A DNA stretch of 47,637 nt, from positions 1-47,637 of IMG/VR virus record IMGVR_UViG_3300037189_007203. One strand, 5' to 3'. Of this stretch, positions 5,368-22,400 are shown piece by piece. Within the stretch, counting starts at the first letter, position 1. Every line of letters starts with the position of its first letter. The stretch is from a virus. The position numbers and the translations under genes were made by a program. Below the pieces are notes generated by a model. It was not told where the DNA came from. It did no database searches and saw nothing but the letters and a program-made list of their open reading frames with translations.

Positions 5368-5442
5368 GACTCGGTCGTCTAACGGATAGGACTTCTGGCT
5401 ACGAACCAGATAATGAGAGTTCGATTCTCTCCTGAGTCACCA
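5368..5442 (+). tRNA. tRNA-Arg, anticodon ACG
   Basis: All four stems fold. The acceptor stem GACTCGG pairs with CTGAGTC with one G-T pair, the D stem is GTC/GAC, the anticodon stem TCTGG/CCAGA closes the loop CTACGAA (anticodon ACG), and the T stem GAGAG/CTCTC closes TTCGATT. The discriminator is A and the CCA end is encoded. A34 would be converted to inosine by the host TadA enzyme, letting it read CGT, CGC and CGA. CGT is one of the two commonest Arg codons in the early genes. Confidence 0.95.
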
Positions 5443-5709
5443 TTTCTCACGCACATGAGTACATTAGGTCTGGGCCTCTGACAGTGCAAAGAGGTAAGAA
5501 GATGGGGCCATCCCATCACCCACGCCTACCAATTAGGGCGGTCTAATAAACTGTCCTTGGCTAACACCTTCGGGTGGCCAAAAAGCCTCCATCGGAGGCA
5601 CCATTTATGAGGTCCTGAAGAGTATCGTGGTTGAAACTCCAAGGCGTAAGTCGGTTAGCATGGCCGAGCCTCACCTTCACCGCCCTAACGGGCACAACCA
5701 AACCACAAC
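5443..5709 (+). promoter_or_regulatory. Structured untranslated region with three hairpins and an A/C-rich leader
   Basis: Three hairpins are visible. At 5557-5581, TTGGC pairs with GCCAA around an inner CACC-TTCG-GGTG stem with a three-base bulge. GCCTCC-ATC-GGAGGC follows at 5585-5599, and GCCC-TAAC-GGGC at 5682-5693. The region ends in the leader ACAACCAAACCACAACATG of the next small gene. No convincing ORF was found. The first two hairpins could form an early terminator, a processing site or a small RNA; none has a clean U-tract. Confidence 0.5.
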
Positions 5710-5808
5710 ATGAACAAACACCAAATCGGCACCCTGTGGGTCGTCGCTCTGGTCATCGACACGGCGGCTCTAATCGCCCTCTGCGTGACCATCGGCCTCC
5801 TCTGGTAA
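5710..5808 (+). CDS. Single-pass membrane miniprotein, 32 residues
   Basis: The predicted product starts MNKHQIGTLWVVALV and consists almost entirely of one hydrophobic segment (about residues 7-32) interrupted by one Asp. Its ATG is preceded by the A/C-rich leader AACCAAACCACAAC and a hairpin at 5682-5693, the same arrangement as recognised genes nearby, which is the main evidence that it is expressed. A small inner-membrane protein made early could modify the envelope, exclude other phages or inhibit a host membrane protein. The function is unknown. Confidence 0.6.
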   Translation: MNKHQIGTLWVVALVIDTAALIALCVTIGLLW

Positions 5809-5814
5809 ACGCCA

Positions 5815-5851
5815 GCCCCTTCGGGGGCATCACTTTCCAACCAACACACAC
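5815..5851 (+). promoter_or_regulatory. UUCG hairpin plus A/C-rich translation leader
   Basis: The perfect hairpin GCCCC-TTCG-GGGGC (5815-5828) is followed by CACTTTCCAACCAACACACAC and the ATG at 5852. There is no U-run after the stem, so it does not look like a terminator. The same hairpin-then-unstructured-leader arrangement recurs before the genes at 5710, 10327 and 10606, and after the tRNA before 11924. Confidence 0.6.
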
Positions 5852-6061
5852 ATGAGTAAAAAAACCAAAAGTAAGTTCAAGTTCATCAAGGCATCTGCCG
5901 TCAGGGCCCACATCAGGGACGTAAGCGGCAAGAGGGTGTCCACGAACTTCCTCTACATCCTCGACGGATACGTAGGCAGGAAGATTGTCGAGGCCGCTCA
6001 GACCCACAATGGCGGTGCCAAGACTGTCAACGAAGAGGTCGCTGGATACTTGGGCATGTAA
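5852..6061 (+). CDS. Small basic early protein, 69 residues
   Basis: No family is recognised. The N-terminus is strongly basic (MSKKTKSKFKFIKASAVRAH) and similar to the start of the protein at 4764. The rest is mixed alpha/beta in composition and contains VSTNFLYILDGYVGRKIVEA. A Lys-rich tail on such a small protein suggests nucleic-acid binding, but this is not shown. It is preceded by a UUCG hairpin and the A/C leader. Twenty-three bases separate it from the next gene, most of them a second copy of the leader. Confidence 0.75.
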   Translation: MSKKTKSKFKFIKASAVRAHIRDVSGKRVSTNFLYILDGYVGRKIVEAAQTHNGGAKTVNEEVAGYLGM

Positions 6062-6084
6062 TCAATCACCAACCAAACACACAC

Positions 6085-6258
6085 ATGAGCAAAACCAAAA
6101 CCTACTACGTCACGCATACCATCTACGTCTGCATGGACATCGAAGCCAAGAGCGAGCAAGAAGCCCTTGATAAGTTCGACAAGGTCGTGAACGACGAAAA
6201 GAAGTACCTCTCCGTCATCTACGACTCCGAGAGCGACACCGAGGCCAACGAATCTTAA
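6085..6258 (+). CDS. Small acidic early protein, 57 residues
   Basis: The protein starts MSKTKTYYVTHTIYVCMDIE and continues with an acidic, helical second half (AKSEQEALDKFDKVVNDEKK). The strand-then-helix pattern of a Tyr/Val-rich strand and an E-A-L-D helix resembles many tiny phage proteins of unknown role. It is too short for default ORF thresholds. Its ATG has a textbook example of the local leader, CACCAACCAAACACACAC, repeated almost exactly before the next gene. Product unknown. Confidence 0.72.
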   Translation: MSKTKTYYVTHTIYVCMDIEAKSEQEALDKFDKVVNDEKKYLSVIYDSESDTEANES

Positions 6259-6277
6259 TCACCAACCAAACACACAC

Positions 6278-6763
6278 ATGAAATACGAAATAGACATCAA
6301 CAACATCAAGGTCACCAACGCCATCGCAAGCGTCATCAATGGTGCCTTCGAGACGGGCCTTAACCCTGCGTGGTTCGAGGTAAAGTCGCTCTCCAAGGGC
6401 GGCTTCCTAGACGCCGCCTTCGCTGGGCCTGAGAACGGAGAAACCGCCAGCGGCAAGCCAGCCATCAAGGATTGGGTCGTCGAAGGAAGGCTCAACTGCG
6501 AAGGGCACAAGTCCAAGTGGACCAAGGTGACTCCCGCACTCGCAGTCGAGGAGTGGACCAAGTACGTCAAGAACACCAAGGATAAGTTCCTGCCCAGCAA
6601 GGTGGAGGCTTACCTCAAGTATCTGGACTACCTGTCCAAGCCCGACCACGACGAGAGCAGGCTCGATAGCATCCTCATGGATGAATACGAACCTGACGGC
6701 GTACACGACGATGCCATGGCCCAAATCGTCTTCAGCAACGGAGAGGGCGTCGTGTTCGGCTAA
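6278..6763 (+). CDS. Unknown early protein, 161 residues
   Basis: This is a soluble, mildly acidic protein with several Trp residues (AWFEV, KDWVVEGR, KWTKV, EEWTKYV) and no recognised motif. It begins after the leader AACCAAACACACAC. It is followed after three bases by the Cys-rich miniprotein and lies in the early operon ahead of the recombination and replication genes. Similar proteins occur in phage early regions, but I cannot assign a role. Arg codons are a mix of AGG, AGA and others, as in neighbours. Confidence 0.82.
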   Translation: MKYEIDINNIKVTNAIASVINGAFETGLNPAWFEVKSLSKGGFLDAAFAGPENGETASGKPAIKDWVVEGRLNCEGHKSKWTKVTPALAVEEWTKYVKNTKDKFLPSKVEAYLKYLDYLSKPDHDESRLDSILMDEYEPDGVHDDAMAQIVFSNGEGVVFG

Positions 6764-6766
6764 GCC

Positions 6767-6865
6767 ATGAGGCTCATCTCCATCAAGGGCTGGCTGGGGG
6801 GCGACGTCTGCGACTACTGCGGAGCAGTCTGCCCATTCGGCATGTGCCACATCTGCAACAAGTGA
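6767..6865 (+). CDS. Cys-rich miniprotein, 32 residues (possible zinc knuckle)
   Basis: The C-terminal half reads CDYCGAVCPFGMCHIC, with five Cys and one His spaced C-x2-C-x3-C-x4-C-x2-C, consistent with a small treble-clef-like or zinc-knuckle fold. It starts three bases after the previous stop and ends one base before the next start, so it fits exactly in the operon. There is no A/C leader here; translation is probably coupled to the gene before it. Zinc binding and any adaptor or inhibitor role are inference. Confidence 0.6.
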   Translation: MRLISIKGWLGGDVCDYCGAVCPFGMCHICNK

Positions 6866-6866
6866 C

Positions 6867-7334
6867 ATGAACAAAGACGCCAAGAAACAACGGAAACTCC
6901 TCGTCCTGAAACTCAAGGAGAGAGGCGTCAGCGTGACCAAGCCTCTCTTCGAGCATGGGCTCAGGGCCGAAAGGCTCAGCGGGGCCTTGGCTTGGGAGAG
7001 CAAAGTCGGACACAGGTCGGTCAGCACCAGAGCGAAGGAAAGCAAGAAGAGGGGCTACAACCCTCACAATGCCAGCGTCCAGACCCGTAAAGTAATCGTA
7101 AAGCATATCCCTATCACCCTGAGCATAGCAGAGTTGTCGAAAGCGACTGGCATGTTTAAGGGCACTGGTGGTACCACGTGGGCCGACTCTGTCAACAAAG
7201 TCGCTGACGAGTTCGCCAAGACCCACAAGGTTGAGGCCATGCGTACCCAGACCAACCTTCAGTACTACTACACCAAGGTGGGCAAAGGCTGGACCAAAAG
7301 AAATAAAAAGCCCATTGACGAACAGCCGTCCTGA
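6867..7334 (+). CDS. Unknown basic early protein, 155 residues
   Basis: This is a Lys/Arg-rich protein. The N-terminus is helical and basic (MNKDAKKQRKLLVLKLKERG). The C-terminal region contains ITLSIAELSKATGMFKGTG and a basic tail (KRNKKP). A nucleic-acid-binding role is plausible from charge, and residues about 85-140 might form a small helical DNA-binding unit, but no family is recognised. It begins one base after the Cys-rich miniprotein. Confidence 0.78.
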   Translation: MNKDAKKQRKLLVLKLKERGVSVTKPLFEHGLRAERLSGALAWESKVGHRSVSTRAKESKKRGYNPHNASVQTRKVIVKHIPITLSIAELSKATGMFKGTGGTTWADSVNKVADEFAKTHKVEAMRTQTNLQYYYTKVGKGWTKRNKKPIDEQPS

Positions 7335-7357
7335 TGGACACTGGCAAACGAACCAAC

Positions 7358-7528
7358 ATGAAATCATCGAAGCATCACGCACTCCAGCACGCCATCGCCG
7401 CAAGCGATGACAAGGCTAGGAGAATCGCATGGAAAGCCTACAGGCTCCTGTGCTACTACGAACCAAATGGCATGGACGACGTCAAGGCGTTGCTCCTCAA
7501 GTCCATCGAACTTCAAACCCAGAAATAA
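7358..7528 (+). CDS. Small helical early protein, 56 residues
   Basis: This basic, alpha-helical protein starts MKSSKHHALQHAIAAS and ends KSIELQTQK. I chose the ATG at 7358 because it follows CAAACGAACCAAC, a good match to the local A/C-rich leader. An alternative ATG at 7334 overlaps the previous stop (TGATG) and would add eight residues. No domain is recognised. The next gene, encoding a nuclease, begins three bases downstream. Confidence 0.7.
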   Translation: MKSSKHHALQHAIAASDDKARRIAWKAYRLLCYYEPNGMDDVKALLLKSIELQTQK

Positions 7529-7531
7529 CAC

Positions 7532-8422
7532 ATGATTAACTACAACGAACTGCTCAATAAGAGCGAACCCAAGGTGTCATTCCTCAAGTGCGAAAGGCAC
7601 GTGATGGAGGACGCCGACTACAGGGCCATGGACGGCATCAATCAGTCCTATCTGAAAAAGGTGTACACCCATGGCGTCATCCACGCCGAGAACCAGAGGC
7701 TCAACCCCATGGAGAAGACTCCCGCACTCGTGATGGGCAGTCTGTTCCACACGCTCGTGCTGGAAGAGGACCAGTTCACCAATCGTTACGCAGTCCTTCC
7801 AGACATCGACAGGCGTACCAAGGAGGGCAAGCAGGTGTATGCCGAATTCGAAGCGGCCTGCGGCAACAGGGACCTCATCAAAGAGATGGAACTGAACACC
7901 GCCATGCGTATGCGTGACAGTGCCGTGCCTCTCATGTATCACGGCGTCAGGCCCGACAGGACCAACGCCCTGAACGAAATCACCTACGCTGGCATCCTCG
8001 AAATCGAGTACAAGTGGGACGGCGAAGACGTCCGTTGCGAGTTCCCCTTCAAAATCAGATGCGACATGGTCGCACAGGTCGATGAGGGCGAACGCAAGGT
8101 GATTGAAATCAGGGACATCAAGTCCTTGGCATCGCTGTCGGATAACGACGTCATCGGCTCCGCCAAGTCGCACCAGTGGTCCATCCAGTGTGCGTTCTAC
8201 AGGGACGTCGTGTTCGCCCACGAGCCCAAGCCCAGCAAGTTCGTCTATGTGGCCACCGAGAAGGAGGCCCCGAACATGAGCCGTAGGTTCGTCTGCTCTG
8301 AAGAGATGTACCAGCGTGGCAGGGCCCAGTACAAGCAGGCCTTCGTGAAGTACCATCGTTGGATTATCGCTGGCAGACCCAGCACCGCAGACTATGTCGG
8401 AGAGTCCATCCTCAACGCCTGA
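7532..8422 (+). CDS. RecE/exonuclease VIII-like PD-(D/E)XK nuclease
   Basis: This 296-residue protein matches phage exonuclease VIII-type nucleases, which resect double-stranded DNA ends 5' to 3' to give single strands for an annealing protein. The family's entry region is present: DADYRAMDGINQSYLKK, then an alpha-helical TPALVMGSLFHTLVLEED. The active-site pattern is D178 in IRCDMV and D195-I-K197 in EIRDIKSL. Further on, QWSIQCAFYRDVV is the conserved helix that follows the core. The ERF annealing protein at 11086 is the expected partner. The leader is AAATAACACATG. Arg is written almost only as AGG and CGT, the codons served by the two phage tRNAs. Confidence 0.85.
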   Translation: MINYNELLNKSEPKVSFLKCERHVMEDADYRAMDGINQSYLKKVYTHGVIHAENQRLNPMEKTPALVMGSLFHTLVLEEDQFTNRYAVLPDIDRRTKEGKQVYAEFEAACGNRDLIKEMELNTAMRMRDSAVPLMYHGVRPDRTNALNEITYAGILEIEYKWDGEDVRCEFPFKIRCDMVAQVDEGERKVIEIRDIKSLASLSDNDVIGSAKSHQWSIQCAFYRDVVFAHEPKPSKFVYVATEKEAPNMSRRFVCSEEMYQRGRAQYKQAFVKYHRWIIAGRPSTADYVGESILNA

Positions 8423-9059
8423 TTTCCCCTTCAAGGGGGTGTGGGTGCCAGCCAAGGTCTTCAAGGACCAGAGGCTGACCCACGCCGACAAGTTCCTGTG
8501 GTCCATCGTGCACATCCTGAGCAACGAGAAGGGGTGCTTCGCAACCAAGGAGACTCTGGCCAACTACATGGGCTCGTCCGTACGCAACGTGCAGTACTCC
8601 CTGTCCAGACTGGCGGAGGCTGGCCTCATCGTCCGTGCCGACGGCAAGGTGTGGGACGTCGTGACCAAGGCTCTGGAGGGTGAAATGGATTGCACCCCAG
8701 ACGTGAAAATTTCTTCACCCCAAGTAGGAAAGGAATTTCACCCATATAGGAACAAGGATATGGATACGAAGAAAGTAAAGGAGGCTACGCCTCCGAATGA
8801 GGACTTTATCAGGTCTGATTCTGAACTGTCTAGGGTCTGGGACGAGTACCTTGCTTGGCGTAGGGCCAGCAAGAAGTCGGTCAACTCCCTGTACATCACC
8901 CGCTGGAACACCGAGTTCAAGAACTGGGGGGTGTTCGACGCCACCAGAGCCATCGAATCCAGCCTCAGGAACGGCTACCAAGGCATCTTCAGGCCTCAGG
9001 CGGGTATGAAGCCTCGTCCTCAGGCAAAAGGCCCCAACGACCACGCCAATGGCTTCTGA
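8394..9059 (+). CDS. Winged-helix replication initiator (lambda O/DnaD-like organiser)
   Basis: The N-terminal third (residues about 8-85) is a winged helix: VWVPAKVFKDQRLTHADKFL, then CFATKETLANYMGSSVRNVQ and YSLSRLAEAGLIVRADG, typical of phage replication-initiation proteins that bind the origin. A polar linker follows, then a C-terminal segment, LSRVWDEYLAWRRASKKS, ending in a Pro/Lys tail. In other phages this region contacts the helicase loader, and here the next gene is a loader, overlapping by 11 bases. The start at 8394 lies inside the nuclease gene (29-base overlap). A later start is possible, but it would trim into the winged helix. No replicative helicase is encoded, so the host one must be recruited. 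Confidence 0.82.
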   Translation: MSESPSSTPDFPFKGVWVPAKVFKDQRLTHADKFLWSIVHILSNEKGCFATKETLANYMGSSVRNVQYSLSRLAEAGLIVRADGKVWDVVTKALEGEMDCTPDVKISSPQVGKEFHPYRNKDMDTKKVKEATPPNEDFIRSDSELSRVWDEYLAWRRASKKSVNSLYITRWNTEFKNWGVFDATRAIESSLRNGYQGIFRPQAGMKPRPQAKGPNDHANGF

Positions 9060-9729
9060 CGCACCGCTCTGTCGCAATTTCAATTGCAACAACATCTGCC
9101 ACGTCCGTGAGTTCGGAGAGGACGGCGTAGCCATCTACGAAACCCTGTGTACCCCTTGCATGGTGCATTGGAACAAGATGGTGATGTCCTTCGGTGCTCC
9201 GAAGAAGCCCGTGCCCGAGACTCCCATGCCTGCACTGTTCGCTGATACCGAAACCGAGCGGCTGGGAATGCTTGAGCGTGTCGCTCAGGAATGGACTCCT
9301 CAGGGCAAGGGCCTGCTCATCCACGGCTCTACCCGCAAGGGAAAGACTCGTACCGCATGGTACATCGCCAACAGGCTGTGGAACGATAACCCGTACAAGA
9401 ACAAGTACCTGTTCCTCACCATGTTCGAACTTGAGGCTCGCATCGCCGCATCGTGGGGCAATAGCACTTGGGACAAGACCATGCTACACATGACCAACGT
9501 CCCGCTCTTGTTCCTCGACGACATGGGCAAGGAGAAGATGACTGACCGCATGGCATCGTGCCTGTTCGCCCTTATCGACCAGCGTACCATGCACAAGCGT
9601 CCGACCATCATCACGACCAACCTGACTGGAGAGACTCTGCTGGAGCGTTTCCACGACAAGGAGACTGGTGCGGCGTTCGTCGCCCGTCTCAAGGACGAGG
9701 ACCTGTTCGAACGGGTTGCCGCAAAATGA
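9049..9729 (+). CDS. DnaC/IstB-like helicase-loader ATPase with N-terminal Cys cluster
   Basis: This is an AAA+ ATPase of the DnaC type, which loads the hexameric host helicase at the phage origin. Walker A is GSTRKGKT at residues 93-100, Walker B is LLFLDD at 153-158, and a sensor-1-like TIITTN lies near 186-191. The N-terminal region carries C8, C13, C17, C34 and C37, suggesting a zinc-binding helicase-contact domain as in some DnaC homologues. At 226 residues it is close to the usual length. It follows the initiator gene with an 11-base overlap and leads into two small genes through ATGA overlaps, so this is a compact replication operon. Confidence 0.9.
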   Translation: MASDAPLCRNFNCNNICHVREFGEDGVAIYETLCTPCMVHWNKMVMSFGAPKKPVPETPMPALFADTETERLGMLERVAQEWTPQGKGLLIHGSTRKGKTRTAWYIANRLWNDNPYKNKYLFLTMFELEARIAASWGNSTWDKTMLHMTNVPLLFLDDMGKEKMTDRMASCLFALIDQRTMHKRPTIITTNLTGETLLERFHDKETGAAFVARLKDEDLFERVAAK

Positions 9730-9944
9730 GAGACGAGATTCAGCGGCTTGGCTTCGACGCATGGGCCGACAACAAGATGGTCAACATCATCGAGAACGCC
9801 GCCAAGGGGACTGTCGGCAACCTGTCCATCGAGAGCGAAGACTATTACGTTCTGTCGTGGTGGAACGAGAAAACCATCAACTGTTGCATCCGTGCCTACA
9901 CTGGCAAGGGGTGGGAAGTTTACGAAAAGGAAATCAAGAGATGA
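9726..9944 (+). CDS. Small protein downstream of the helicase loader, 72 residues
   Basis: The product starts MRDEIQRLGFDAWADNKMVN, with a beta-rich centre (SEDYYVLSWWNEKTINCCI) and a basic end. No family is recognised. Both junctions are ATGA overlaps (9726-9729 with the loader, 9941-9944 with the next gene), which strongly supports the start even though an open frame extends upstream within the loader gene. Translational coupling with the loader suggests a replication accessory role, by inference. Confidence 0.75.
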   Translation: MRDEIQRLGFDAWADNKMVNIIENAAKGTVGNLSIESEDYYVLSWWNEKTINCCIRAYTGKGWEVYEKEIKR

Positions 9945-10186
9945 GCGAGCCGAACCACCTTTACCATCAGGCGTTGTCATCCAACCGCAAACTGCTGAAA
10001 GAGAACGCTCGCCTCAAAGCCGAGGTCGAAGAACTGAAACGACAGCCAGACCCGCTGATGTGTTACCTCTACGCCGCAGAAATGGCCAAGGATGACATCA
10101 AGAAACTCAAGGCTGAGGTTAAGCGACTGACCGAAGAGAACGAGCAACTCCAAAACCGATGCGACTTCTTGGAGGGCAAGCAGTAA
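9941..10186 (+). CDS. Coiled-coil protein, 81 residues
   Basis: Two heptad-rich segments are visible, KLLKENARLKAEVEELKRQ (about residues 17-35) and KDDIKKLKAEVKRLTEENEQ (about 51-70), with Leu at the a/d positions. It probably dimerises. It could be a scaffold-like or regulatory coiled coil; no family is recognised. The start is set by the ATGA overlap with the previous gene. It is the last gene before a 140-base gap that probably holds a new promoter. Confidence 0.75.
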   Translation: MSEPNHLYHQALSSNRKLLKENARLKAEVEELKRQPDPLMCYLYAAEMAKDDIKKLKAEVKRLTEENEQLQNRCDFLEGKQ

Positions 10187-10326
10187 TCCCGAAGTCGTTG
10201 TCCTACATAAACTAACGTATCCTAAAAAAACTCATTTATTTTGTTGCAGGACGTCTAACTAAACGTTCTACTTCATCTACGACCCAGTAAACGCTGGGTA
10301 GAACCAACCAACCAACAACCAGCAAC
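10187..10326 (+). promoter_or_regulatory. Candidate promoter region, hairpin and A/C-rich leader
   Basis: An AT-rich stretch (CTAAAAAAACTCATTTATTTT, near 10220-10240) stands out from the surroundings and is the best early-promoter candidate here. It is followed by the hairpin ACCCAG-TAAACG-CTGGGT (10282-10299); GTTCTAC/GTAGAAC gives an alternative outer stem. Then comes a long unstructured leader, AACCAACCAACCAACAACC, before the ATG at 10327. Exact promoter boxes cannot be assigned. Confidence 0.5.
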
Positions 10327-10566
10327 ATGAGCGACATCAACATCAATCACGTCAATGCTCGTATCGAGGACCTCGAAAGGGAAATCGCTACTATCAAGGC
10401 TGAGAAGCAGAACCTCACCGACCCCGTCATCAAGGGACTAGGCGTCAAGTTCAGCGAACTCGACCTGAGCAAAGCCTCGGCTGTCATCCATCTTCACAAC
10501 GCCGTCATCGAGCGTCTTGAAGAACTGACCGCCAAGGTTAAGGCCCTCGAAGCGAAAGCCAAGTAA
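10327..10566 (+). CDS. Coiled-coil protein, 79 residues
   Basis: This is an all-helical, highly charged protein with N-terminal and C-terminal coiled-coil segments (HVNARIEDLEREIATIKAEK and ERLEELTAKVKALEAKAK). It has the look of a small dimeric or trimeric accessory protein. It has no Cys or Trp and no recognised family. The ATG follows a hairpin and a long A/C leader, so it may be well expressed. A second hairpin and leader separate it from the next gene. Confidence 0.78.
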   Translation: MSDININHVNARIEDLEREIATIKAEKQNLTDPVIKGLGVKFSELDLSKASAVIHLHNAVIERLEELTAKVKALEAKAK

Positions 10567-10572
10567 GCCCAA

Positions 10573-10605
10573 GGGGGTGAGAAGCCCCCACCAATTTCCA
10601 CACAC
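10573..10605 (+). promoter_or_regulatory. Hairpin plus A/C-rich leader
   Basis: GGGGG (10573-10577) can pair with CCCCC (10585-10589) around a seven-base loop. The stem is followed by ACCAATTTCCACACACATG. This is another case of a small hairpin placed just before the unstructured leader of an early gene. Confidence 0.5.
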
Positions 10606-10914
10606 ATGAAAGAAGTAAAGAACATCACCAAGCCCAAGGCCAAGGACGAGCCGTACAACGGCTGGCCCAACTACAGCACCTATTGGGCCGCACACGTCAT
10701 CGCCAACGACGAGAACCTGTACACGCTGTGCAAGGAACTCTGGGAGGACGGCTACAAGTCTTGGGGCTCGCTCTCCAACAAACTCAGGGAGTACGGCTCC
10801 AAGTGGCAGTCCAACTACACTGGCCTCAACTACGTCTGCTGGAAGGATAACACCATCAGGGGCGGAGAAATGACCAAGCACCTCAACGAACTTTTCCAAC
10901 CCACCAAAAAATGA
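10606..10914 (+). CDS. Conserved-type phage protein (YNGWPNYSTYW motif), 102 residues
   Basis: The N-terminal segment EPYNGWPNYSTYWAAHVIAN resembles a small phage domain family that starts YNGWxNYETWxxALWI (I recall it as DUF7249, name not checked). The rest is rich in Trp and Tyr (KELWEDGYKSWGSLSN, YVCWKD). Function in the family is unknown. It ends in an ATGA overlap with the following ribbon-helix-helix gene. The leader is AATTTCCACACACATG. Confidence 0.75.
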   Translation: MKEVKNITKPKAKDEPYNGWPNYSTYWAAHVIANDENLYTLCKELWEDGYKSWGSLSNKLREYGSKWQSNYTGLNYVCWKDNTIRGGEMTKHLNELFQPTKK

Positions 10915-11102
10915 AAGATAACAAAACCCACCGCCTCATCTGGATTAAAGTCCCGACTGAGAACGCCAAACGTCTGGATGCCCTCGCAAAGAACTGGGAC
11001 CTGACCAGAGCCTCGCTCTGCCGTCTCGTCGTCACTCAGTTCCTCAACGAGAAGAACCCGACCATCAACATCAATTCCACCAACAATGAGCAGTCCAACT
11101 AA
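10911..11102 (+). CDS. Ribbon-helix-helix (CopG/Arc-like) DNA-binding protein, 63 residues
   Basis: The sequence HRLIWIKVPTENAKRLDALA, then KNWDLTRASLCRLVVTQFLN, fits a ribbon-helix-helix fold: one basic strand for DNA contact followed by two helices. Such proteins act as dimeric repressors. The 3' end of the gene contains AATTCCACCAACAATG, so its last codons double as the A/C-rich leader of the ERF gene that starts at 11086. It may regulate the early operon by itself or with the second RHH protein at 11924; the target is not known. Confidence 0.75.
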   Translation: MKDNKTHRLIWIKVPTENAKRLDALAKNWDLTRASLCRLVVTQFLNEKNPTININSTNNEQSN

Positions 11103-11826
11103 TCCTACCTACGTGTACGACATCAGACCCGAACTCGCCGCCGCACTAGTGGCCGCATGCAGTGAAACTAGGGACGTAAGCCCAGACGCCGAGAACCCGT
11201 TTCACCACTCGTCCTATGCGACCTTGAGTGCCCATATTGCGGCCACCAAGGCAATCTTCGCCAAGCATGGTCTGGCTATCATCCAGTTCCCCATCGGCTC
11301 GGCTGAATCCGTAGGCATCCGTACCTGCATCGTCCACAAGAGCGGCGGTCAGATGGGTTACACCTGCGAACTGCCCGTCGATAAGGACAAGTTCAAGGGT
11401 CAGGATGCTGGTTCGCTTTTCTCTTATTTGAGAAGGTACGCCATCGCCTCCGTCGCAAATCTGGCTACGGCTGATGATGACGCAGAAGCGGACAGAGCCT
11501 CCAAGGCTCCTGCCCCCAAGTACATCCCTAACCCTGTCGCCGCTCCTGCCCCTAAGGCCGTTGCCAAGCCTCAGGCCGTCGCCAAGGACCCCGAGACTGT
11601 CGGAGACGCCATGAGGACTGTCCTCCACTTCGGTAAGAACAAAGGCAAGGCCCTCTTCGAACTGCCCAGCAACTCGCTGGAGTGGTACATCAAGGAGTTC
11701 CAGCCCAAGGGTTACAAGGACCAGCCTCCCAGCCCTCAGGACATCGCCCTCCGTGCCGCTCTGGACGCCATCCAGAACGCCAAGGGTCAGGCCAGCGAGC
11801 CCACCAGCGACGACGTTCCGTTCTAA
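11086..11826 (+). CDS. erf: ERF-family single-strand annealing recombinase with SSB-like tail
   Basis: ERF proteins form rings that anneal complementary single strands and help circularise or recombine phage DNA. The core (residues 10-130) shows the family features: AENPFHHSSYATLSAHIAAT, then KAIFAKHGLAIIQFP and DAGSLFSYLRRYAIASVANL followed by ATADDDAEAD. After an Ala/Pro-rich linker, a short domain (LHFGKNKGKALFELP...LEWYIKEF) resembles a small C-terminal module found in some nucleases and annealing proteins. The protein ends SDDVPF, resembling the C-terminal tip of bacterial SSB (DDDIPF). With the exonuclease at 7532 it makes a two-component recombination system. It overlaps the RHH gene by 17 bases. 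Confidence 0.9.
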   Translation: MSSPTNPTYVYDIRPELAAALVAACSETRDVSPDAENPFHHSSYATLSAHIAATKAIFAKHGLAIIQFPIGSAESVGIRTCIVHKSGGQMGYTCELPVDKDKFKGQDAGSLFSYLRRYAIASVANLATADDDAEADRASKAPAPKYIPNPVAAPAPKAVAKPQAVAKDPETVGDAMRTVLHFGKNKGKALFELPSNSLEWYIKEFQPKGYKDQPPSPQDIALRAALDAIQNAKGQASEPTSDDVPF

Positions 11827-11832
11827 TCCTTT

Positions 11833-11904
11833 GCTCCCTTAGTTCAACGGATAGAACAACTGCCTTCTAAGCAGTGAATCTAGGTTCGATTCCTAGAGGG
11901 AGCA
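11833..11904 (+). tRNA. tRNA-Arg, anticodon TCT
   Basis: The acceptor stem GCTCCCT/AGGGAGC, D stem GTTC/GAAC, anticodon stem ACTGC/GCAGT with loop CTTCTAA (anticodon TCT), and T stem CTAGG/CCTAG are all perfect. The discriminator is A. The CCA end is not encoded, unlike the other tRNA. It reads AGA and, by wobble, AGG, which is very common in this genome. It lies six bases after the ERF stop, inside the early transcript, so it must be processed out of mRNA. Confidence 0.95.
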
Positions 11905-11923
11905 ATTTTCCACCCACACACAC

Positions 11924-12244
11924 ATGAAACAGAGAACCCACAACAGGAAGTTCGGGGCAGTGAAGACTGTCATCGGCAAGACCATCATCTGCACCAACGT
12001 CTCCAAGGACTTGGCCGCTGATGTCGATGTCCTCGCCACCGCTGAAGGTATCAGCCGTTCCGACTTCATCCGTACCGCAATCGTCCGTGAGGTCGCTTTC
12101 CGTTCCTACATCAAGGAACGTGATATCGCCTCCTGCGAAATCGGCGGCGGCTTCTCCTACGGCTCCAAGGCCAAGGACAAGCAGTACGCTGAGCAGATTG
12201 CGGTGGCCTACAAGGCCTTCAACGCCGCTCTCGCCCTCAAGTAA
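11924..12244 (+). CDS. Ribbon-helix-helix-type protein, 106 residues
   Basis: Residues about 22-62 (TIICTNVSKDLAADVDVLAT, then AEGISRSDFIRTAIVREVAF) match a ribbon-helix-helix domain: a strand, then a first helix, then a second helix ending in the conserved R-S-D-F-I-R-T-A pattern. A basic N-terminus and a helical C-terminus flank it. It is probably a DNA-binding dimer and may repress early genes. Its leader is TTTTCCACCCACACACACATG immediately after the tRNA, and a strong terminator follows, so it closes the early operon. Confidence 0.8.
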   Translation: MKQRTHNRKFGAVKTVIGKTIICTNVSKDLAADVDVLATAEGISRSDFIRTAIVREVAFRSYIKERDIASCEIGGGFSYGSKAKDKQYAEQIAVAYKAFNAALALK

Positions 12245-12281: not shown

Positions 12282-12305
12282 GGGAGTCTTCGGACTCCCT
12301 TTTTT
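12282..12305 (+). terminator. Rho-independent terminator ending the early block
   Basis: GGGAGTC (12282-12288), the loop TTCG and GACTCCC (12293-12299) form a seven-pair stem followed directly by TTTTTT. It lies 38 bases after the last early gene and faces the convergent late block. Confidence 0.93.
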
Positions 12306-13152: not shown

Positions 13153-13482
13153 TTAGCGATTTCTTTGATTTTTTCCATGGAGAGGATTAGAGCCGTTCAA
13201 GACCCTCAAGACAAGTTGTATGAGTTCAGGCGTGGCTGAGCCGCAACAGGAATAGATGATGGCCTCGTACAGAGGCTCCACCTTTCCGTGGACGGCGAAG
13301 TAGCACAGCACCCCTACGATTCCGCCTGCGATGATTCGTCTTACCCATAGCCACCAAGGAACATCCTCCTTGGCCAAAAGCAACCTGCATAGGGCACCCA
13401 AGGCCCCGAGCATGGCTACAATCCACCCACCTTTCTTCAACTCTTCGGCGGTCTGTAGTAGGTTGTTATCTGGCGGAGTCAT
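13153..13482 (-). CDS. Holin (superfamily III/LydA-like)
   Basis: The product has 109 residues from the ATG at 13482. It has a short polar N-terminus, a first membrane segment (GGWIVAMLGALGALCRLLLA, residues 18-37), a second (RRIIAGGIVGVLCYFAVHG, about 48-66) and a third weaker helix (EAIIYSCCGSATPELIQLVL). The layout and the GALGAL...R pattern resemble LydA-type holins that open the inner membrane at lysis. The start overlaps the end of the giant gene by 17 bases. A longer upstream frame exists but runs inside the giant gene. The next gene is the lipoprotein, so holin and candidate spanin form the lysis cassette, with the endolysin elsewhere. Confidence 0.82.
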   Translation of the reverse strand: MTPPDNNLLQTAEELKKGGWIVAMLGALGALCRLLLAKEDVPWWLWVRRIIAGGIVGVLCYFAVHGKVEPLYEAIIYSCCGSATPELIQLVLRVLNGSNPLHGKNQRNR

Positions 13483-16400
13483 CTTCGTCTTCGAGGGCTT
13501 CGCCCTTGGTCGGAATCTTGCGGCCCATCGTGACCTTGCTGAAGTTCCTGTACATTCTGGAGAGCATCTCAAGGGTTTGGGTGTTGGGTTCGGCACGGCC
13601 CCTGCCACCGCCAGAGGGCATGAGCATGGCGATGCCATCGACAATCTTCTTCCTAAAGGCCTTCTTGTGGGCCTCCGTGGGCATGCGGGGCTTGAACCTG
13701 AGGACAGGTCCGCCGCACGAGAAGTAGGTGGACATGGCACGGGACAACGCCTCAGGGTCCGAAACGTTGACCTTGTTGACATGCTTCATCCATACCTTCG
13801 GTCCGACCACGCTGAACACAGGGCCGAAGGGTGCCATGGGCTTGGCGTTCTGGCTTCGGAACGAACTGCCTGACTTGGGTTCTTCCCCGCCTAGGTTCGA
13901 TACGACGCCGCCGAACGACGCTGGGAGGATGTTGCCCTTCCTGTTGTATTCGGAGGGGTTGTAGTCCTCGTTGAGTGCCGAAACCATGCTTTCTCCAGTC
14001 GTCTTTCCGTGGGTATGGCCTTGGGTGACATAGGCACCGACAGGGGACCACTCGCTCAGGAACTTGGAGATGTAGGGCAGTCTGCCCATGTACTTGGAAT
14101 TCTGGAAGAACGCCTCCCTGAGCATTGTCGGGTTGTTAATCTTTTCCATGATTGCACGGCCAGTCTTGGGGTCAACGAGCGTGTAGGTCCCGTCTGCGGC
14201 GACTGTGACCAAGGGTCTTTGGAATGCGTCGGTGGAGAACCCGTCGATGGACGCCTGCTTCTGCCCGTACATGATGGACTGGATGAACCAAGAAGGTGCA
14301 CCATACTGGGACACATACCCCATGGCCCTTCCAGCCTCGGACCAGTAGAACATCGAGGAGCCAGCGTTGGCCACGGCGGAGTCGATTACTCTCTGCCTGT
14401 CGTTCTTCTCTCCATCGCTGACCCTTCCGTAGTTCCGCTGGAAGAAATCAGTAGGCAAGTCCTTGGCCCTGTACGGCTTCCCGTCGGCATCGAGCATGCT
14501 ACTCTCTCCATAACTTACATACGGGTCGGCAGGTCTTCCGATGTATTCCATCGCACCCTCGATGTGGGCCTCGCCTCCTGCCACAGCCCTCCAGTAAGAA
14601 CTAACGTCACCCATGTCGGCAGGCATGATGCCGTCCGTCATAATCAGCGGAGCGGCTTCGATTGCCGCCTTGGTGACATGCAATCTGATGTCGCCGCTGA
14701 CGCCGTTATGCTCGAATGCGTTGCCGCTCCTGAACACGGACACGAAGAAGGCGTTGTCCACTTCGGCCAATCTCTTGAACAAGCCTCCGTGCAACTGACT
14801 CCTTACGGACTCTGGGAGCACGAAAATCTGGGCCATGATGTGTGCGAACGTGTTGTCCGACGCCATGGTGAGCATGTTCGCCTGCCTTCCGATGAGCATG
14901 GTCGGGACGATGTCCAACGAGTGACCTCTCATCACCTGCATTCTTGCGTCTGAATAGGTGATGGCACCGAAGCCAGCGTTGGCCGCACGAAGGACTGTGC
15001 CAGTGACGGCCACGGGCTTGTAGATGTCCTCGACTCCGTACGGAAGCGTACTGGTCAGTCTTGGGGCGTTGGTGCTCGGCTTAATCGGAACCTGAGGAGA
15101 GAGTTCGTCGATTCTCGCCTGCAAGTCCTTAATCTGGGCAGGAACGACGCCCATTCTCGACACATGCGAGATGAGCCCAGAAATCGAACTGGCGGCGAAC
15201 TGACCGAGTGCGGTGTTGGCCGCAACGTACTGCACGGCATAGGAGGCCGTATCTGCGTCTGGAGCGGGAGCCCTTTGTGCGTTCCTGAAGTCCAACTGAT
15301 GTGCGTTCATCGGATTGGAAATCATGCCAGCAGAAGGGAACAGCAGTTGTGCTGGGTTCATCCTGTCATGGTCTTGGCCTGACTCTATCAGGACGTACCT
15401 GTTCGGGTTCTGAGTGACCGAAGATGCCAGAGGACTGTCTTCGTATCCTCTTCCGAAACTTCCCTCGACGGGTGCTCCGTCTGGCTGTACTTCTGGCATG
15501 AGCATCTGATTCCTAGGAGACTCAAGACGCTCACGATAGGTTGCGATGAGGTTGTCGAAGAACTTGGCCTTGGCCAGCCTGCTTGCCCTCGGTCCAGCAT
15601 AATCACGAAGGTAATCCTGCTCCATGGCGTCGCTCGAAAGGACGGATTCCCTCATCGCCTCGATTCTGTCGATGGTTCTTGCCGCAACTGCGTCCCAGTC
15701 AACGTCCGTGGCACCGACCATGGCGTTGTTGGATTCGGTGATGTGGAGGGACTTGCTGATTACCTCTGGGTCTTGGGCCGCATAAATCATGAAGACGAAA
15801 CTCGGGGTAGGCTGGGGCCTGTTCGATGAGTCCTCACGATAACTGAAAGAATCGTTTTCAAAAACGTACCCCATGAACGACTTTGGAAGCAGTGCCGCCA
15901 TAAGGTCCCCGTGGGCCAGATTGTTGATTTGTACGGCGAGCCTTCTGCCGACCTGAACCGCCATCCTTCCAGCCTCTTCGTTTTCATGGATACGTCCAGT
16001 CCTGTAATCCTGAAGGTCTGGGTGTGCGTAGACTGGGATTGTCTCCTTGCCGATGTAGGGCCTGTAATGTGCGGGAACCTGCATGGTCCTACCAGTCTCC
16101 TTCAGCGTCAGGCTGTCCTTCAGCATGTAGAGTTCGATGGGAGAAAGGACGGACAGGTTCTTCATCAGGAACATGGTGTTCATCCTATTGTCACCACGGG
16201 CGTTCATCATCTGGAACTTGAGGTTCTGGTTGATGAGCGTCTGTGCGTCCTTGACCGATGCTTCCAGCCTCTTCTTGGCCTCGATTAGTTTGGCCAAGTC
16301 TCCAGACTTCTTGAGTCCTTCGATTTGCTCGAACGTATCTGGTAGTGACTTTTCTGCGGTGTTCGGGTCGCCGAAGGTATGGTACTGGAAGGAGTCAGAC

Positions 16401-19400
16401 TGGATTTCTTCGATGCCGATTACGGCCTCTGGGGCGTACTTGAATCCGCTGACGGCGTCTTCCCCGTGGAAGGCGGGCTCGGTATGGTTTGCGATTCCGT
16501 ACTCACCAGAGAGCACAGTCTCGGTGCTTCTGACGTGTCCCAACTGGAAGGTTCCGGGGTCATTGTTGTCGTAGTGACTGAAGTCGGCCACTTGTCCGCC
16601 GACGAGTTTTCTCACGGCTTCGACACGCTCGATGGTGTCGATGATGCTTTGAATCTTCTTCTTCTGCTCTGGAGACTGGGCATGGTTCATCCTGTCCTTG
16701 AGCGTTTCCTTAGCCCTTCTGGACTCTTCTAGGAGCCTGACGTTGGTCACTTCGACGAACTGAGGGCTGGACTGATAGAAACCAGTGAACGTCGCATAGG
16801 ACGCATGGTAGTTTCCTCCGTGGAAGTAAAGGTTCTGCTGGCTGGCCGACGGGTAGGGGTATGTGGAACCCACGCTCTTGAACACGCCAATTCCGACATT
16901 GAGGGAGGACGGGGCGTCTTCGCCAGACGTAGGATTCAGGGGGTTCGTTTCTCTGGTCTGATTGGAATACTCAATCTCATAAGGATTGATGAAGCCCAAT
17001 TCTCCCAAGAAGGTTTCGATGGTCTTGTACTGGTCGCCGAGCCTTCCCCAGATTACGTCCCTCATGACGTATTCCAACTGGGCAGGTCTTACGCCTCTAG
17101 TCTCCCCGAAGAATCCTTCCTTGGTCGCAGAGGTTTCCGTGGTGTTCCTGTAGAGGCTCCTCATGGCCTCGATGCTGTCCATCAGGCTTCCAGTGATTAG
17201 GTCTGGAGGCATGCCCATCTCGGCAATCGTGAACTCAAGGGACTTTTGAAGTGCGGCGGCGAGGGCCTGTGCGTCTGCATGGGTTTCTTCCACATGAAGT
17301 TTGTCTTCGATTAGTTTGGCTACCTTTTGGAGATTGTCCAAGTGGGTGTTGACCACGAAATCTTCCTTGGCCTGAACGTCGTCGATGAAAGGCAGGTTGT
17401 AGAGTCCGCTGAGCGAGCCAGCCTTGATATTCCTGTTTTCGGACAGGATGGGGTTGTTGTTGGCCCGTCTGATTTGCCTGCTGGTCCTAGGATAGACAGT
17501 GTAGATGAACTCGGCTAGGTCCTGTCTGGTGAGGGGTGTGTTCATGTTATCGTGCAGGAGGTACACGATGCCAGTCATGCGAATCTCGTCCTTGGAGACA
17601 GCGTTCTCCCTGATGAACTTGTACCACTCCGCACCAGTCATGCTGTCAGGGTAAAGGTCCCTGCCAGACTTACGCTTTCCGTAGGCGACGACCTTCATCA
17701 ACTTGGAGGAGAACTCGACTGGACCGCTTCCGTTTCCGAACGTGAGTTTTCTTCTGAGAAGTCCCTCCAGTTCTCTTGCGTCCCTGCTACCAATCATGAG
17801 GTTGGCGGACCTGACCTGCACGGGAGGGAGTTGGGTCTGTAACACGGAGCCAGTGCTGAGTGCCTGACTCACGGCATTCGCCTCGGTGGGAGTCATGGAC
17901 TTGTCGAAATCTCCGACGTAGTACGACTTGCTGTTAACCATGGCTAGGCCAGATTCGTTCTCCCTGAGGAACTTCCCAGTCTGTACGCTGAAGTCCACGT
18001 TCGAGTCTGGGTTCGTGACGCCCTGCTTAATCTGCGGAGCGTCCATGCCTGCGGCCACCAAGGCCTGAGCCATGATAGCCTTGCTGGCCTTGACTCCGAA
18101 TTGTGCCCTGATGGATTCGGCTTCGGCTAGTGTCTTGACTGGCACCACCTTCTTGGTGGTGATTGGGTTCCCGTACTGGTCGATGCCAGTCTGGAAGTCA
18201 TAGGTGACGAAGTAGCCAGTAGGCTTGGCCTTGGGTCCTCTGTGGACGATGGAGACGCCGTTCTCTTCCTTGCCGTCCCATGCGAACTTCAGCAAGTCCT
18301 GCCTATTGGGGAACATGAGTTCGATGGCGAGCGTGGTGTCCCCGTTCTTGGTGATGTGTCTTTCGGCGTCAGGGATGGAGAAGCCGTGGTCTGACTGGAT
18401 GGCAAGTTCTGCTACCTTCTCGATGTCTCCGAGCAGTCTCGGATTTCTTCCAAGCACGAGGGCGGCTCTTCTCGAAAATGCGGTCTTATGGTCTTCGACG
18501 CTCAAGACTTGGCCGTACTCAGAGGTGGCCTCTGGGTTTTTCTTGAGGATTTCTTCGATGTCAGCCGAATCAAGCGGAGAGGAGCCAGCGGAGTCTCTCA
18601 TCAAGGCCTCAAGCCTAGTGCTCTTTCCTCCTCCACGATGGTACTCGGGCCCGAGAGAACCAGAACTTGCTTTCATGCCTCCGTAGATGCTGGCTCCGTC
18701 TCCGAGCGGAGGAATCAGCATGCCCGTGCTTTGAGTCTGGCTGGCAAGGACTCTCATCAGGTTGGACATGGACCCTCCAATGAAGATGTTGTTCAGGACC
18801 GAACGGATGACTTCTGGCGTGGCGTCGGCTGGTAGCGTGATGCTTGCGTACTGATGTCCAGTCCTGTGGCCGAGGATGGAATAGGCCAAGGCGACTGCAT
18901 CGGCGTCGTTGTGTGCGTCGTCAGAAGACATCATCTTCTCGAACCCAGCACTCTGAGTTGAGTACCTGTACGGAATGCCAGACTTGTTTGCGTCGATGCC
19001 CTCGTACCTAGTTCTGATTGAATCACCCTTTGCGATTCTAGCCCTAGCAGACTTGATTAACTGCTTACGCCAAGACGCTCCTCCGATGGAGAACGCTTGG
19101 TTCATGCCAGAAGGCTCTGCGGCGTAATTCGACATGTTCATGTTCCCGAACAAGGCCATGTGGATGTTTGCTGGCGAGATGTCGCCAGTATACGGGTCGT
19201 AGCCTAGGGATTCCTGAATGCTGAATCCGATGGGAATCTTTCGTCTTTCTTCCTGAGGGGTATACTGCCTTCCGAGATAGCCAGCCTTGTATCCAGCATG
19301 GTCGCCAGTGATATTGATGACCAGCCTTCCGTCTTCGAGACGCTTCCATGCGAATCCAGCCATCGGATTAGTCATGAAGGGCATGTTCTCTGCGAAGTTG

Positions 19401-22400
19401 TCGTAATGGGTCGTGCCATTGTCCCTGTCAGGGACGAAGGGAAGGCCAGCGAACAATGCGGAGACGCCCTGTGCGTGTGCCTTGTACTTGATTCCACTAC
19501 CGCCGCTTTCGGTTTCATGCGTCTTCATGGACCTACTGGTGATGGCTCGTCCGCTGAGCCTGAATCTGGCAGGCTCGATGCTCACCTTGTCGGTTCCCAT
19601 CTTCTTGGCCTGAGCGATGATGGAATTGACCACGTTCTTTCTGATGAAGGTCTGGCTGATTTCCGAGCCCCTGAATCCTACATCTGCCTTATGTACGCCG
19701 AGAAGGCTGTCTGGGCTTTGGTTCGGCTGTGCTTCATCCCCCTCGACGACGAACACGTTAGGGTCGTTCGAAGCAGGGTCGTAAACCTTGAACAGAGCCT
19801 CGGCCAAGCCCATCTGCTCACCAGAGAATCCGATGGCAGGAATCTGAAATTCTCTCTGCTGAACGACGTTGGTGTCTGCCGCTACGATGGAGTGGCTTCT
19901 ATTGGGATGGTTGATATGCCCAGTGAAATGAGAGCCGACTGCGGTGTTGGATGCCGAGAAGGTGGGGGACTGCGACTTGTAAGCCAAGGGAGACATGTAC
20001 GTCATCAGGCTGGAGTGAGGCCTGTCCTTGGACGGATTTCCGTCGGTCATGTCTGGCACATAGGCCCTAGCGGAAGAATCCATGACGGACCAAGCGGCAA
20101 GAAGGGCGTTTTGGGTGATGGGGTCGCTGAAGACAGCCGATGCCATTTTTCCAATCCAATGAGGGGAAACTCCGCTATTGTAGATGCTGTTGATGTAGTC
20201 CCTTTCATTGACGCCCATTTCGGTGGCGTATCTTCCTTCCGTGAGGTAGAAGTCCAACTGCCTGTTCAACTCGGCACGGGTTTCGTTGCCGATTTTCTGC
20301 GAAAGATTCGGGGCTTCTGGGAGTCTCTTGATGTGCTGATATGCGTTCATCACGCCAAGCATCGTCAGGATTCCATAATTGGAATTGGAAGACGTCAGGT
20401 GGCTGATGATTGCGGAAATCTGCTTGGAATCCAGAGTCTCGAAGAAAGCCTTTCTGGCCGCATCCATCTCTGGGGTGAACTTCACTGAGAAGTCGTGACC
20501 CCTGTAGGCGTCTCTGGCGGCTTTGAGCAAGGCTCTCTGCTCGACGCTGAGTATGTCTCCGACTACGAGTTTGCCATTCTTGACGACAGGCACCTTTTCG
20601 GACATGGCGACGGCCAAGAAGGGTGCGATGCCGATAGCGTAACTTTCGATGGTATGTCCGCCGTCATGCTGTGAGTTGAACGTGTTGCTCTGGGAAGGCT
20701 GTGCCCAGAGTTGGTAGAAATTCGAATCAGCCGTAAGGGACTGGGTCACTCCGATGCCTTTCTCCCAAGAAGTCAGATAAAGGGCGGAATGGAGTGCGTG
20801 GATGCCATTCGTGTAGGGACGGGCGGAGTCGATGAGTACTCCCCTTTCGCTGAATGTGCCGCCCTGCTGGGTCTGCACGATGGTGGCCGCAAGGTCGGAC
20901 AGCGGACCGATGTAAGACATGGGCCTAGTGACGTTCCCGTTTCCGTCATTGATTGCACCGAAGATGATGGACCTAGCCGCAAGGTCCTTCAAGACGGACG
21001 CCTTTACGACTGGGATGTTGTACGACCTGTTTCCTACGCCAGAGGGAACGAGTCGGTTGTTCCAGATGGGAAGTTCCATGTTCCGCTTGTGCGTGAGTGC
21101 GGAAGAAGTGTCCGCAACCAAGTTCTCTTGCAGGACGAGGCCTCCGTCGGCACCACGATAGCCTCTCAGCAGTGCTAGTTCTTGGATGAATCCAGTGGAG
21201 ACAGAGCCTCCGTCCCCAATTTTTTGCACGTTTCTGTGGACATAGTCCCTGCTGGAGTTCTGGACGTCGCCGATTAGCAGGGTGGCGGACTGGGCCAGAG
21301 TTGCGGCCTGCGAAGAAATCTTGATAAGGAGCCTCATCTTATCAAGACCTGAAACTTCAGCCTCTTGGTCGGACAGTTCGTTCAGGACCTTTTCCGCAAG
21401 CGACCTCGTGGCGTAGGCGGATGAAGTCACGGACATCAGGTTATCTTGGATGTTGCTGTCGGAGTGGAATCTTCTTTCTCCGATGTCATCAATAAGTCCG
21501 TAGAAACTGAATTCCCTTTGCCCGATTTTGAAATCCGTATTGGTGATTGACCCAGCCCTGATTGTGGACTCTGAAGTGAATCCGACCATGGGCATGAGGG
21601 TCTGCAATTCGACGAAAGCATCCCTCACCTCTGGGCTGTAGCCGCTCGCATAAATGGCTGGTGCGATTCCGATTTGATTGTAAGTTCTGGACGCCTCCAT
21701 GTTGCGTGGGTCGGTATGGCTTTCATAGATGGACATCGAACTACCGAATGACCTGTGGGACTGCGTACCGACTCCGTTGACGGAGTGAGTCCTGAATCCA
21801 GCGAGGTCTGGCTCAAGCATGGCCAGAGACGCTTCGTCCAATAGCGAGAACTTGACGGCCATCAGTTGGTCGGCCTGCGTCGGGTCCATACCCTCGGTAC
21901 CAGAGGACAACTTTTCGATAATCTTCTGATAGAACGGCTTAATCAGGAACATCTTTCTCGCAATCCTCCTGTTGAGCAATTCGGCCTGCTGTTCGATGGC
22001 CGCTCTCATGAGCCTTTCGGCATCCGTGTCAGCAAGGCCTTGTTTGACACCAAAGTATCCAGCGTCCAGATACCCCTTATTGGCCCACTTATCAGTCAGT
22101 TTAGCCCAAACGGCATCCTCGACCCAGTCGGGCTTCCTCGGAATAAAAACCGCTCTTCCAGTCGTAAAGTCAAAGTTTAGAAGACCGAACCTGTTTTTTC
22201 CGTAACTTCCTACGGAAGAATTCATGCTCTGGAAAATCGTATCGAATTGCGGAGGCATCGCATCACGACCAACCAGAGTATCAATGAAATTTCTTACTGG
22301 GTCGTTGGTGCTGTAGTATGAGTTGCCCTTGAATGCGGCATCGACGGAAGAAATCAATTTCTGCGGAGTGGCATTTTCAACGTCGAACTTGGCCTTCATC

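Follow-up and report, generated by a model that had tools for sequence, protein, structure and literature searches.

A/C-rich leaders at the early start codons of a phage family without Shine-Dalgarno enrichment

How start codons are chosen in messages that show no enrichment of Shine-Dalgarno (SD) sequences is the question raised by the early genes of the virus record IMGVR_UViG_3300037189_007203 (IMG/VR), whose 47,637 bases, of about 54% G+C, constitute the window analysed here. These genes span about 5.7-12.2 kb of the plus strand and encode exonuclease, replication O-like, DnaC-like and Erf-like proteins; the structural genes (major head, scaffold and portal, the last named through annotated relatives) occupy the minus strand. 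Several early genes are preceded by a leader composed of A and C that touches the ATG. This A/C leader is real, conserved across the phage family and tied to starts, and its features suggest that it probably acts as an SD-independent ribosome landing site, mainly for the early genes of these phages.

A sequence-only reading of the window had listed eight starts with such leaders, all of them within the early block, and each was confirmed in the sequence. All leaders are on the plus strand. Pure A/C runs touch the ATG at 5710 (17 nucleotides, nt; leader 5694-5709, also seen in relatives), 5852 (15 nt; a TTTCC box plus leader, 5834-5851), 6085 (18 nt; 6067-6084), 6278 (18 nt; 6260-6277) and 11924 (14 nt; a TTTTCC box plus leader, 11906-11923). 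Two sites are weak, namely 10606 (8 nt), whose leader ACCAATTTCCACACAC (10590-10605) has counterparts in orthologues, and the alternative start 7358 (7 nt; 7351-7357), yet the orthologue of the latter in the relative G030 starts at the equivalent ATG. At 10327 one G close to the ATG interrupts a 20-nt run, and single Gs break up the whole leader (10300-10326), which is supported by orthologues. The leader claimed inside coding sequence before the Erf-like gene 11086 is likewise present, within the ribbon-helix-helix-like gene (9 nt; 11077-11085), and a further one of 15 nt, missing from that list, precedes gene 10911 within the 3' end of gene 10606 (10896-10910). Over the whole window, 6 of the 12 plus-strand A/C runs of at least 12 nt end exactly at an ATG, as does 1 of the 9 on the minus strand. 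The pattern [AC]12-ATG occurs 6 times on the plus strand, always before an early plus-strand gene, whereas 300 dinucleotide shuffles yield 0.15 on average and never more than 2.

Since a query with the exonuclease returned just one close relative, the portal was chosen as query, and it gave 208 matching stretches among viral contigs, of which 80 were kept. In 34 related phage records, near-duplicates included, M13-ATG (M being A or C) was counted at 97 sites vs 5 for the reversed pattern; it is present in 28 of these records and not in the other 6. Thirty of the 34 entered the gene-level comparisons (G009, near identical to the window, and G022, G029 and G031 were left out, and G008 was read to 40,000 of its 40,382 bases). 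Genes were called with our own caller from codon bias only, and early and late genes were defined as those on the strand opposite to or the same as that of the longest gene, a rule under which short contigs may be mislabelled. G014, which nearly duplicates G013, was retained in the SD, 115-site and orthologue comparisons described below and excluded from the 29-contig counts (starts vs internal ATGs, composition and folding, hairpins by gap).

An A/C run of at least 11 nt precedes an ATG at 115 sites in the 30 contigs; the early strand holds 92 of these and the late strand 23. Called starts account for 84 of them, 12 are intergenic (mostly a tiny first open reading frame, ORF, of 32-33 codons) and 10 are internal and in frame; the remainder comprise 5 upstream alternatives, 3 out-of-frame sites and 1 antisense site. 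In the set of 29 contigs such runs were found at 70/389 early ATG starts vs 17/2,331 internal ATGs (p 1.4e-45, with related genes treated as independent), and at 10/698 late ATG starts vs 9/14,896 internal ATGs. Some of the early internal ATGs that carry a run are likely true starts missed by the gene caller. On the early strand ATG follows [AC]11 87 times and GTA only 3 times; other two-letter runs before ATG number 25 for [CT]11, 12 for [GT]11, 3 for [AG]11 and 1 for [AT]11. The expectation that the motif would be commoner before starts than elsewhere, in the window and in related phages, was thus borne out.

What has been kept in these leaders is not a fixed string. For instance, in 18/18 orthologues of gene 10327 the A/C fraction over the last 15 nt is 0.87-1.00 with changing letters, and in orthologues of 8394 and 9049, taken as examples of early genes without the leader, it is mostly 0.5-0.8. 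Among the orthologues compared, the leader is conserved as composition and not as sequence. With respect to position, 66 leaders have C at -1 in 0.71, A at -2 in 0.79 and C at -3 in 0.62 of cases; A and C alternate in them beyond shuffles (0.69 vs 0.535), and the first codons that follow likewise lean to A and C. The same composition extends into coding ends: from -15 to -1, A/C content is 0.702 where early starts overlap the preceding gene (n=116) vs 0.547 at the remaining early 3' ends (n=226; p 1.4e-15), and late genes show no difference (0.606 vs 0.590, p 0.23). Upstream 3' ends are A/C-rich where early starts overlap them, and the leader therefore bends the C-termini of adjacent proteins. 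Folding agreed with the earlier description of the leader as unstructured, the mean unpaired probability from -18 to +12 being 0.81 at leader starts (n=69) vs 0.52 at other early starts (150), 0.54 at late starts (150) and 0.42 at internal ATGs (150).

The SD test compared GGAG, GAGG and AGGA cores at -20 to -4 with coding control windows. These cores are enriched neither at early starts (46/443 vs 66/428 coding windows) nor at late starts (114/752 vs 144/733), so that late genes lack SD sequences as had been proposed. SD-led initiation was rejected for both classes, the cores being at or below the coding background. The ratio of GGAG-N4..9-ATG to its reversed pattern is inflated everywhere by triplet bias and was therefore set aside as a measure of SD use; the gene-level windows took its place. 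The A-rich late leaders described earlier do exist in a mild form, with A at 0.41 at -13 and 0.40 at -6.

Stable RNA structures stand upstream of some of these leaders, in the order hairpin, ACAACC or NNNCTTTCC, A/C run and ATG, and all those reported in the window are present on its plus strand. The hairpin GCCC-TAAC-GGGC (5682-5693) lies directly before the leader of ORF 5710 (5710-5808), the first early gene; it is kept in relatives with the loops TAAC, TCAC, GCAA and GAAA and with one compensated stem pair (GCCA/TGGC). This 32-amino acid hydrophobic ORF, with which the early block opens, is conserved in 15/30 contigs and is overlooked by length-limited gene calls. In the 43-nt gap before gene 5852 stands GCCCC-TTCG-GGGGC (5815-5828); the box ATCACTTTCC that follows UUCG hairpins, as at 5815-5838 of the window, looks like the 3' tail of 16S rRNA, ATCACCTCCTTTC. 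The leaders of 6085 and 6278, with gaps of 23 and 19 nt, have no hairpin. Gene 10606 is preceded by GGGGGT-GAGAA-GCCCCC (10573-10589) and gene 10327 by a hairpin at 10282-10299. Before 11924 the hairpin's place is occupied by tRNA-Arg(TCT) at 11832-11905, one of two plus-strand tRNA-Arg genes in the window (the other, acg, at 5368-5442). The window has the tRNA alone, and the 11924 orthologues in G001, G030 and G032 carry a hairpin between tRNA and leader. In several relatives a tRNA apparently ends just before an A/C leader.

The 10327 hairpin offers evidence of conservation at the level of structure. Twelve of the 18 orthologues were aligned, a selection that favours structure; G014 and G001 (near copies of G013 and G032) were omitted, together with G006, G011, G016 and G021, whose hairpins are shifted, short or absent. 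In this alignment the 6-pair stem is paired in 93.1% of cells and its covariation reaches 0.646 vs 0.204 in shuffles (0/500 as high), slid versions giving at most 0.126. The 4 two-sided pair changes and the 8 further pair types do not exceed shuffles (108/500 and 153/500). The module survey covered 80 non-redundant early sites out of 92. Early intergenic hairpins favour stable tetraloops: GNRA, UNCG or UMAC loops, which we take to be the stable classes, form 40% of 80 early intergenic tetraloop hairpins but only 7% of the 399 located within early coding sequence. Where the gap to the preceding gene is at least 40 nt, a hairpin was found at 26/41 leader starts, some of which may be tRNA arms, vs 32/117 other early starts (p 5e-5). 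The upstream hairpins are thus, as far as the compared sequences go, conserved RNA structures at some positions and are not universal.

Two further candidate roles for these hairpins were considered. They were rejected as intrinsic terminators, being followed by ACAACC or NNNCTTTCC and by no T tract, and a terminator scan found a plus-strand terminator at 12282 and none at the leader hairpins. The former (12282-12299), a strong terminator whose loop is TTCG and which has six T, marks the end of the early block. Among the Rfam 15 covariance models, nothing but the two tRNAs reaches the gathering score in the window.

The features observed directly are position, enrichment, conservation, covariation at one site and the lack of SD enrichment; ribosome binding and enhancement are what we infer, along with the parts of bS1, hairpin and host. 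In the mechanism that we favour, A and C cannot pair together, and the 11-40 nt before the AUG would stay single-stranded, as would the A/C-leaning first codons. The 30S subunit would bind this open leader and reach the AUG with no need of SD pairing, perhaps assisted by ribosomal protein bS1 or a similar factor. Where room exists upstream, a stable hairpin or a tRNA would bound the leader and may shield it from pairing with upstream RNA, or else protect a 5' end. A bolder proposal, which we consider doubtful, takes hairpin or tRNA plus leader as a portable RNA module and as an SD-free landing site of a class of its own. Some specific factor of the host or the phage would read this module, and early phage messages would thereby be placed ahead of those of an SD-poor host among the Verrucomicrobiota.

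Several known systems resemble these leaders in part. Stabilising stem-loops at 5' ends, such as that of ompA, are like the phage arrangement in that a hairpin is followed by an open ribosome-binding stretch; they differ in that several phage hairpins lie between genes. The CAA-rich omega leader of tobacco mosaic virus has been reported to be active in bacteria and is also an open, CAA-type leader without SD, although it belongs to a plant RNA virus and no common origin is suggested. Leaderless mRNA is argued against by leaders lying between cistrons 12-23 nt apart and by the conserved upstream hairpins. In PMC3879156, which deals with the ACA/CA enhancers of yifK and dppA in enteric bacteria, replacement of four ACA motifs cuts dppA expression more than 100-fold. 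Its reference 36 is cited there for SD-free initiation promoted by an ACAA repeat, and its reference 32 for CA repeats, on which PMC9031893 is another source. Like these enhancers, which raise initiation, the phage leaders are A/C-rich stretches near the start in which ACA or CA repeats occur; the enteric enhancers, however, sit next to an SD and are themselves the target of a small RNA, whereas the phage leaders show no SD enrichment and touch the AUG. According to PMC6847099, non-SD initiation in Flavobacterium is tuned by structure and upstream A. The phage leaders share with these Bacteroidota Kozak-like starts the lack of SD, weak structure and a preference for A at -6 (0.64, n=66), but A at -3, which is stressed there, is found in only 0.38, C being favoured at this position, and the runs are A plus C instead of A-rich; late starts have A in 0.35 at -3 and 0.40 at -6. 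At non-SD genes of several phyla, PMC5397173 describes weak structure and C signals immediately upstream of the start. A limited literature search found no report of hairpin plus A/C leader in phages. Our preferred reading places the A/C leader close to the ACA/CA enhancers and the non-SD starts already described, with the hairpin in a putative protecting or insulating role. With respect to the conserved enhancer proposed by the sequence-only reading, the conserved, start-linked signal stands across relatives; the word enhancer would follow by analogy from composition, position and the known ACA/CA cases.

The host is likely an SD-poor member of the Verrucomicrobiota, to judge from portal relatives in this phylum and from one such genome without SD enrichment. 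A scan of 84,980 genome species returned one portal relative, in an Opitutia metagenome-assembled genome (25% identity), and a portal profile, with which this phylum only was searched, found relatives in 11/387 Verrucomicrobiota genomes. In one of these carriers, G156, where the relative lies within a 3.75-Mb contig, SD cores are not enriched (23/194 vs 34/191) and starts have C at -1 and -2. The extract of PMC10783764 lists Akkermansia and Verrucomicrobia bacterium IMCC26134 among SD-scarce bacteria with an intact anti-SD; similarly, the 16S rRNA of G103 and G061, of the candidate class, retains the anti-SD CCTCC. Unlike for the phage leaders, that extract mentions no A/C run or hairpin. In G156 and in G389, another verrucomicrobial carrier of a portal relative, starts have A/C runs of at least 5 nt 2.6-2.9 times as often as internal ATGs do, and for this reason the phage leader resembles an intensified version of a slight tendency of the host.

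Several observations weigh against the leader as a general SD-free landing site. No run of at least 11 nt precedes a start in the two sampled genomes (0/185 and 0/194), so that the proposed comparison with candidate host leaders held for short runs and failed for long ones in G156 and G389; moreover, G389 does use SD sequences (62/185 vs 24/184). In the phages themselves, 319/389 early starts have no run of at least 11 nt. With a stricter score the hairpin excess at gaps of at least 40 nt is not significant (13/41 vs 22/117, p 0.07), and hairpins are absent from 28/28 of the remaining leaders, 0/14 having one at gaps of 0-39 nt and 0/14 at overlapping starts. The hairpin before the leader, as first described, therefore survives as a conserved RNA structure at several positions and not as a part of every leader. 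The exact 14-mer CCAACCAACACACA precedes ATG in just 10/121 matches in other viral contigs, and this sequence itself is therefore no marker outside the phage family. In those contigs (L091-L210), 61/121 matches continue into ATA, not ATG.

Part of the evidence can be read otherwise. It is quite conceivable, at somewhat less than even chances, that openness is all that is selected: the leader must be unstructured and free of G, A and C are the cheapest way to achieve this at about 54% G+C, no factor reads the sequence, and the hairpins are unrelated intercistronic RNA elements. The free variation of leader sequences, the high unpaired probability (0.81) and the occurrence of hairpins also more than 100 nt from starts agree with this, but other runs that cannot pair with themselves are rarer before ATG (25 for [CT]11, 3 for [AG]11 and 1 for [AT]11 vs 87 for [AC]11), and neither the alternation of A and C nor the preference for C at -1 and A at -2 is expected from it. 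A rather unlikely alternative is that hairpin and leader form the 5' untranslated region of early transcripts and that mRNA lifetime is chiefly selected. In 15/18 orthologues of 10327 a TTG[CT][AG] motif stands 83-87 nt before the start, and in-register hairpins begin 38-40 nt after it (TTGCA at 10244-10248 of the plus strand, 38 nt upstream of the 10282 hairpin, a possible -35 element). If this were a -35 box, transcription would start just before the hairpin, which would then open the transcript. However, a sigma-70 scan found no promoter at the TTGCA motif, the 5852 hairpin lies in a 43-nt gap between genes and many leaders have no hairpin.

Readings without a role in translation fare worse. 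Two repressor-like genes in the early block (weak PHROGs matches), 10911 and 11924, whose products are presumably ribbon-helix-helix-like, could suggest that the runs are DNA operators controlling early transcription. We rejected this very improbable reading on account of the single orientation of the runs, their contact with ATG, their location both between tightly spaced cistrons and within the ends of coding sequences, and the rarity of [GT]11-ATG (12 vs 87). Hardly more credit is due to shared boundary sequences that aid phage recombination; the hairpin-leader module does precede non-orthologous genes, but its copies keep composition and pairing, not identity. Initiation at an open A/C leader remains the reading that we prefer.

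Outside the early block, an open frame of 5,650 amino acids (13466-30418, minus strand) takes up more than one third of the record, and frames of similar size occur in several relatives. For distant relatives an alternative genetic code was first contemplated and then dropped, as stops sit at the portal's end.

Outside a few phyla, little is known of how ribosomes choose starts when SD pairing plays no part. In this phage family a strong natural signal recurs in many diverged copies, at one site together with a covarying hairpin, and SD-free start choice therefore becomes directly testable. Recognition of A/C leaders would also improve start calling in phages, where gene finders trained on SD sequences may misplace starts.

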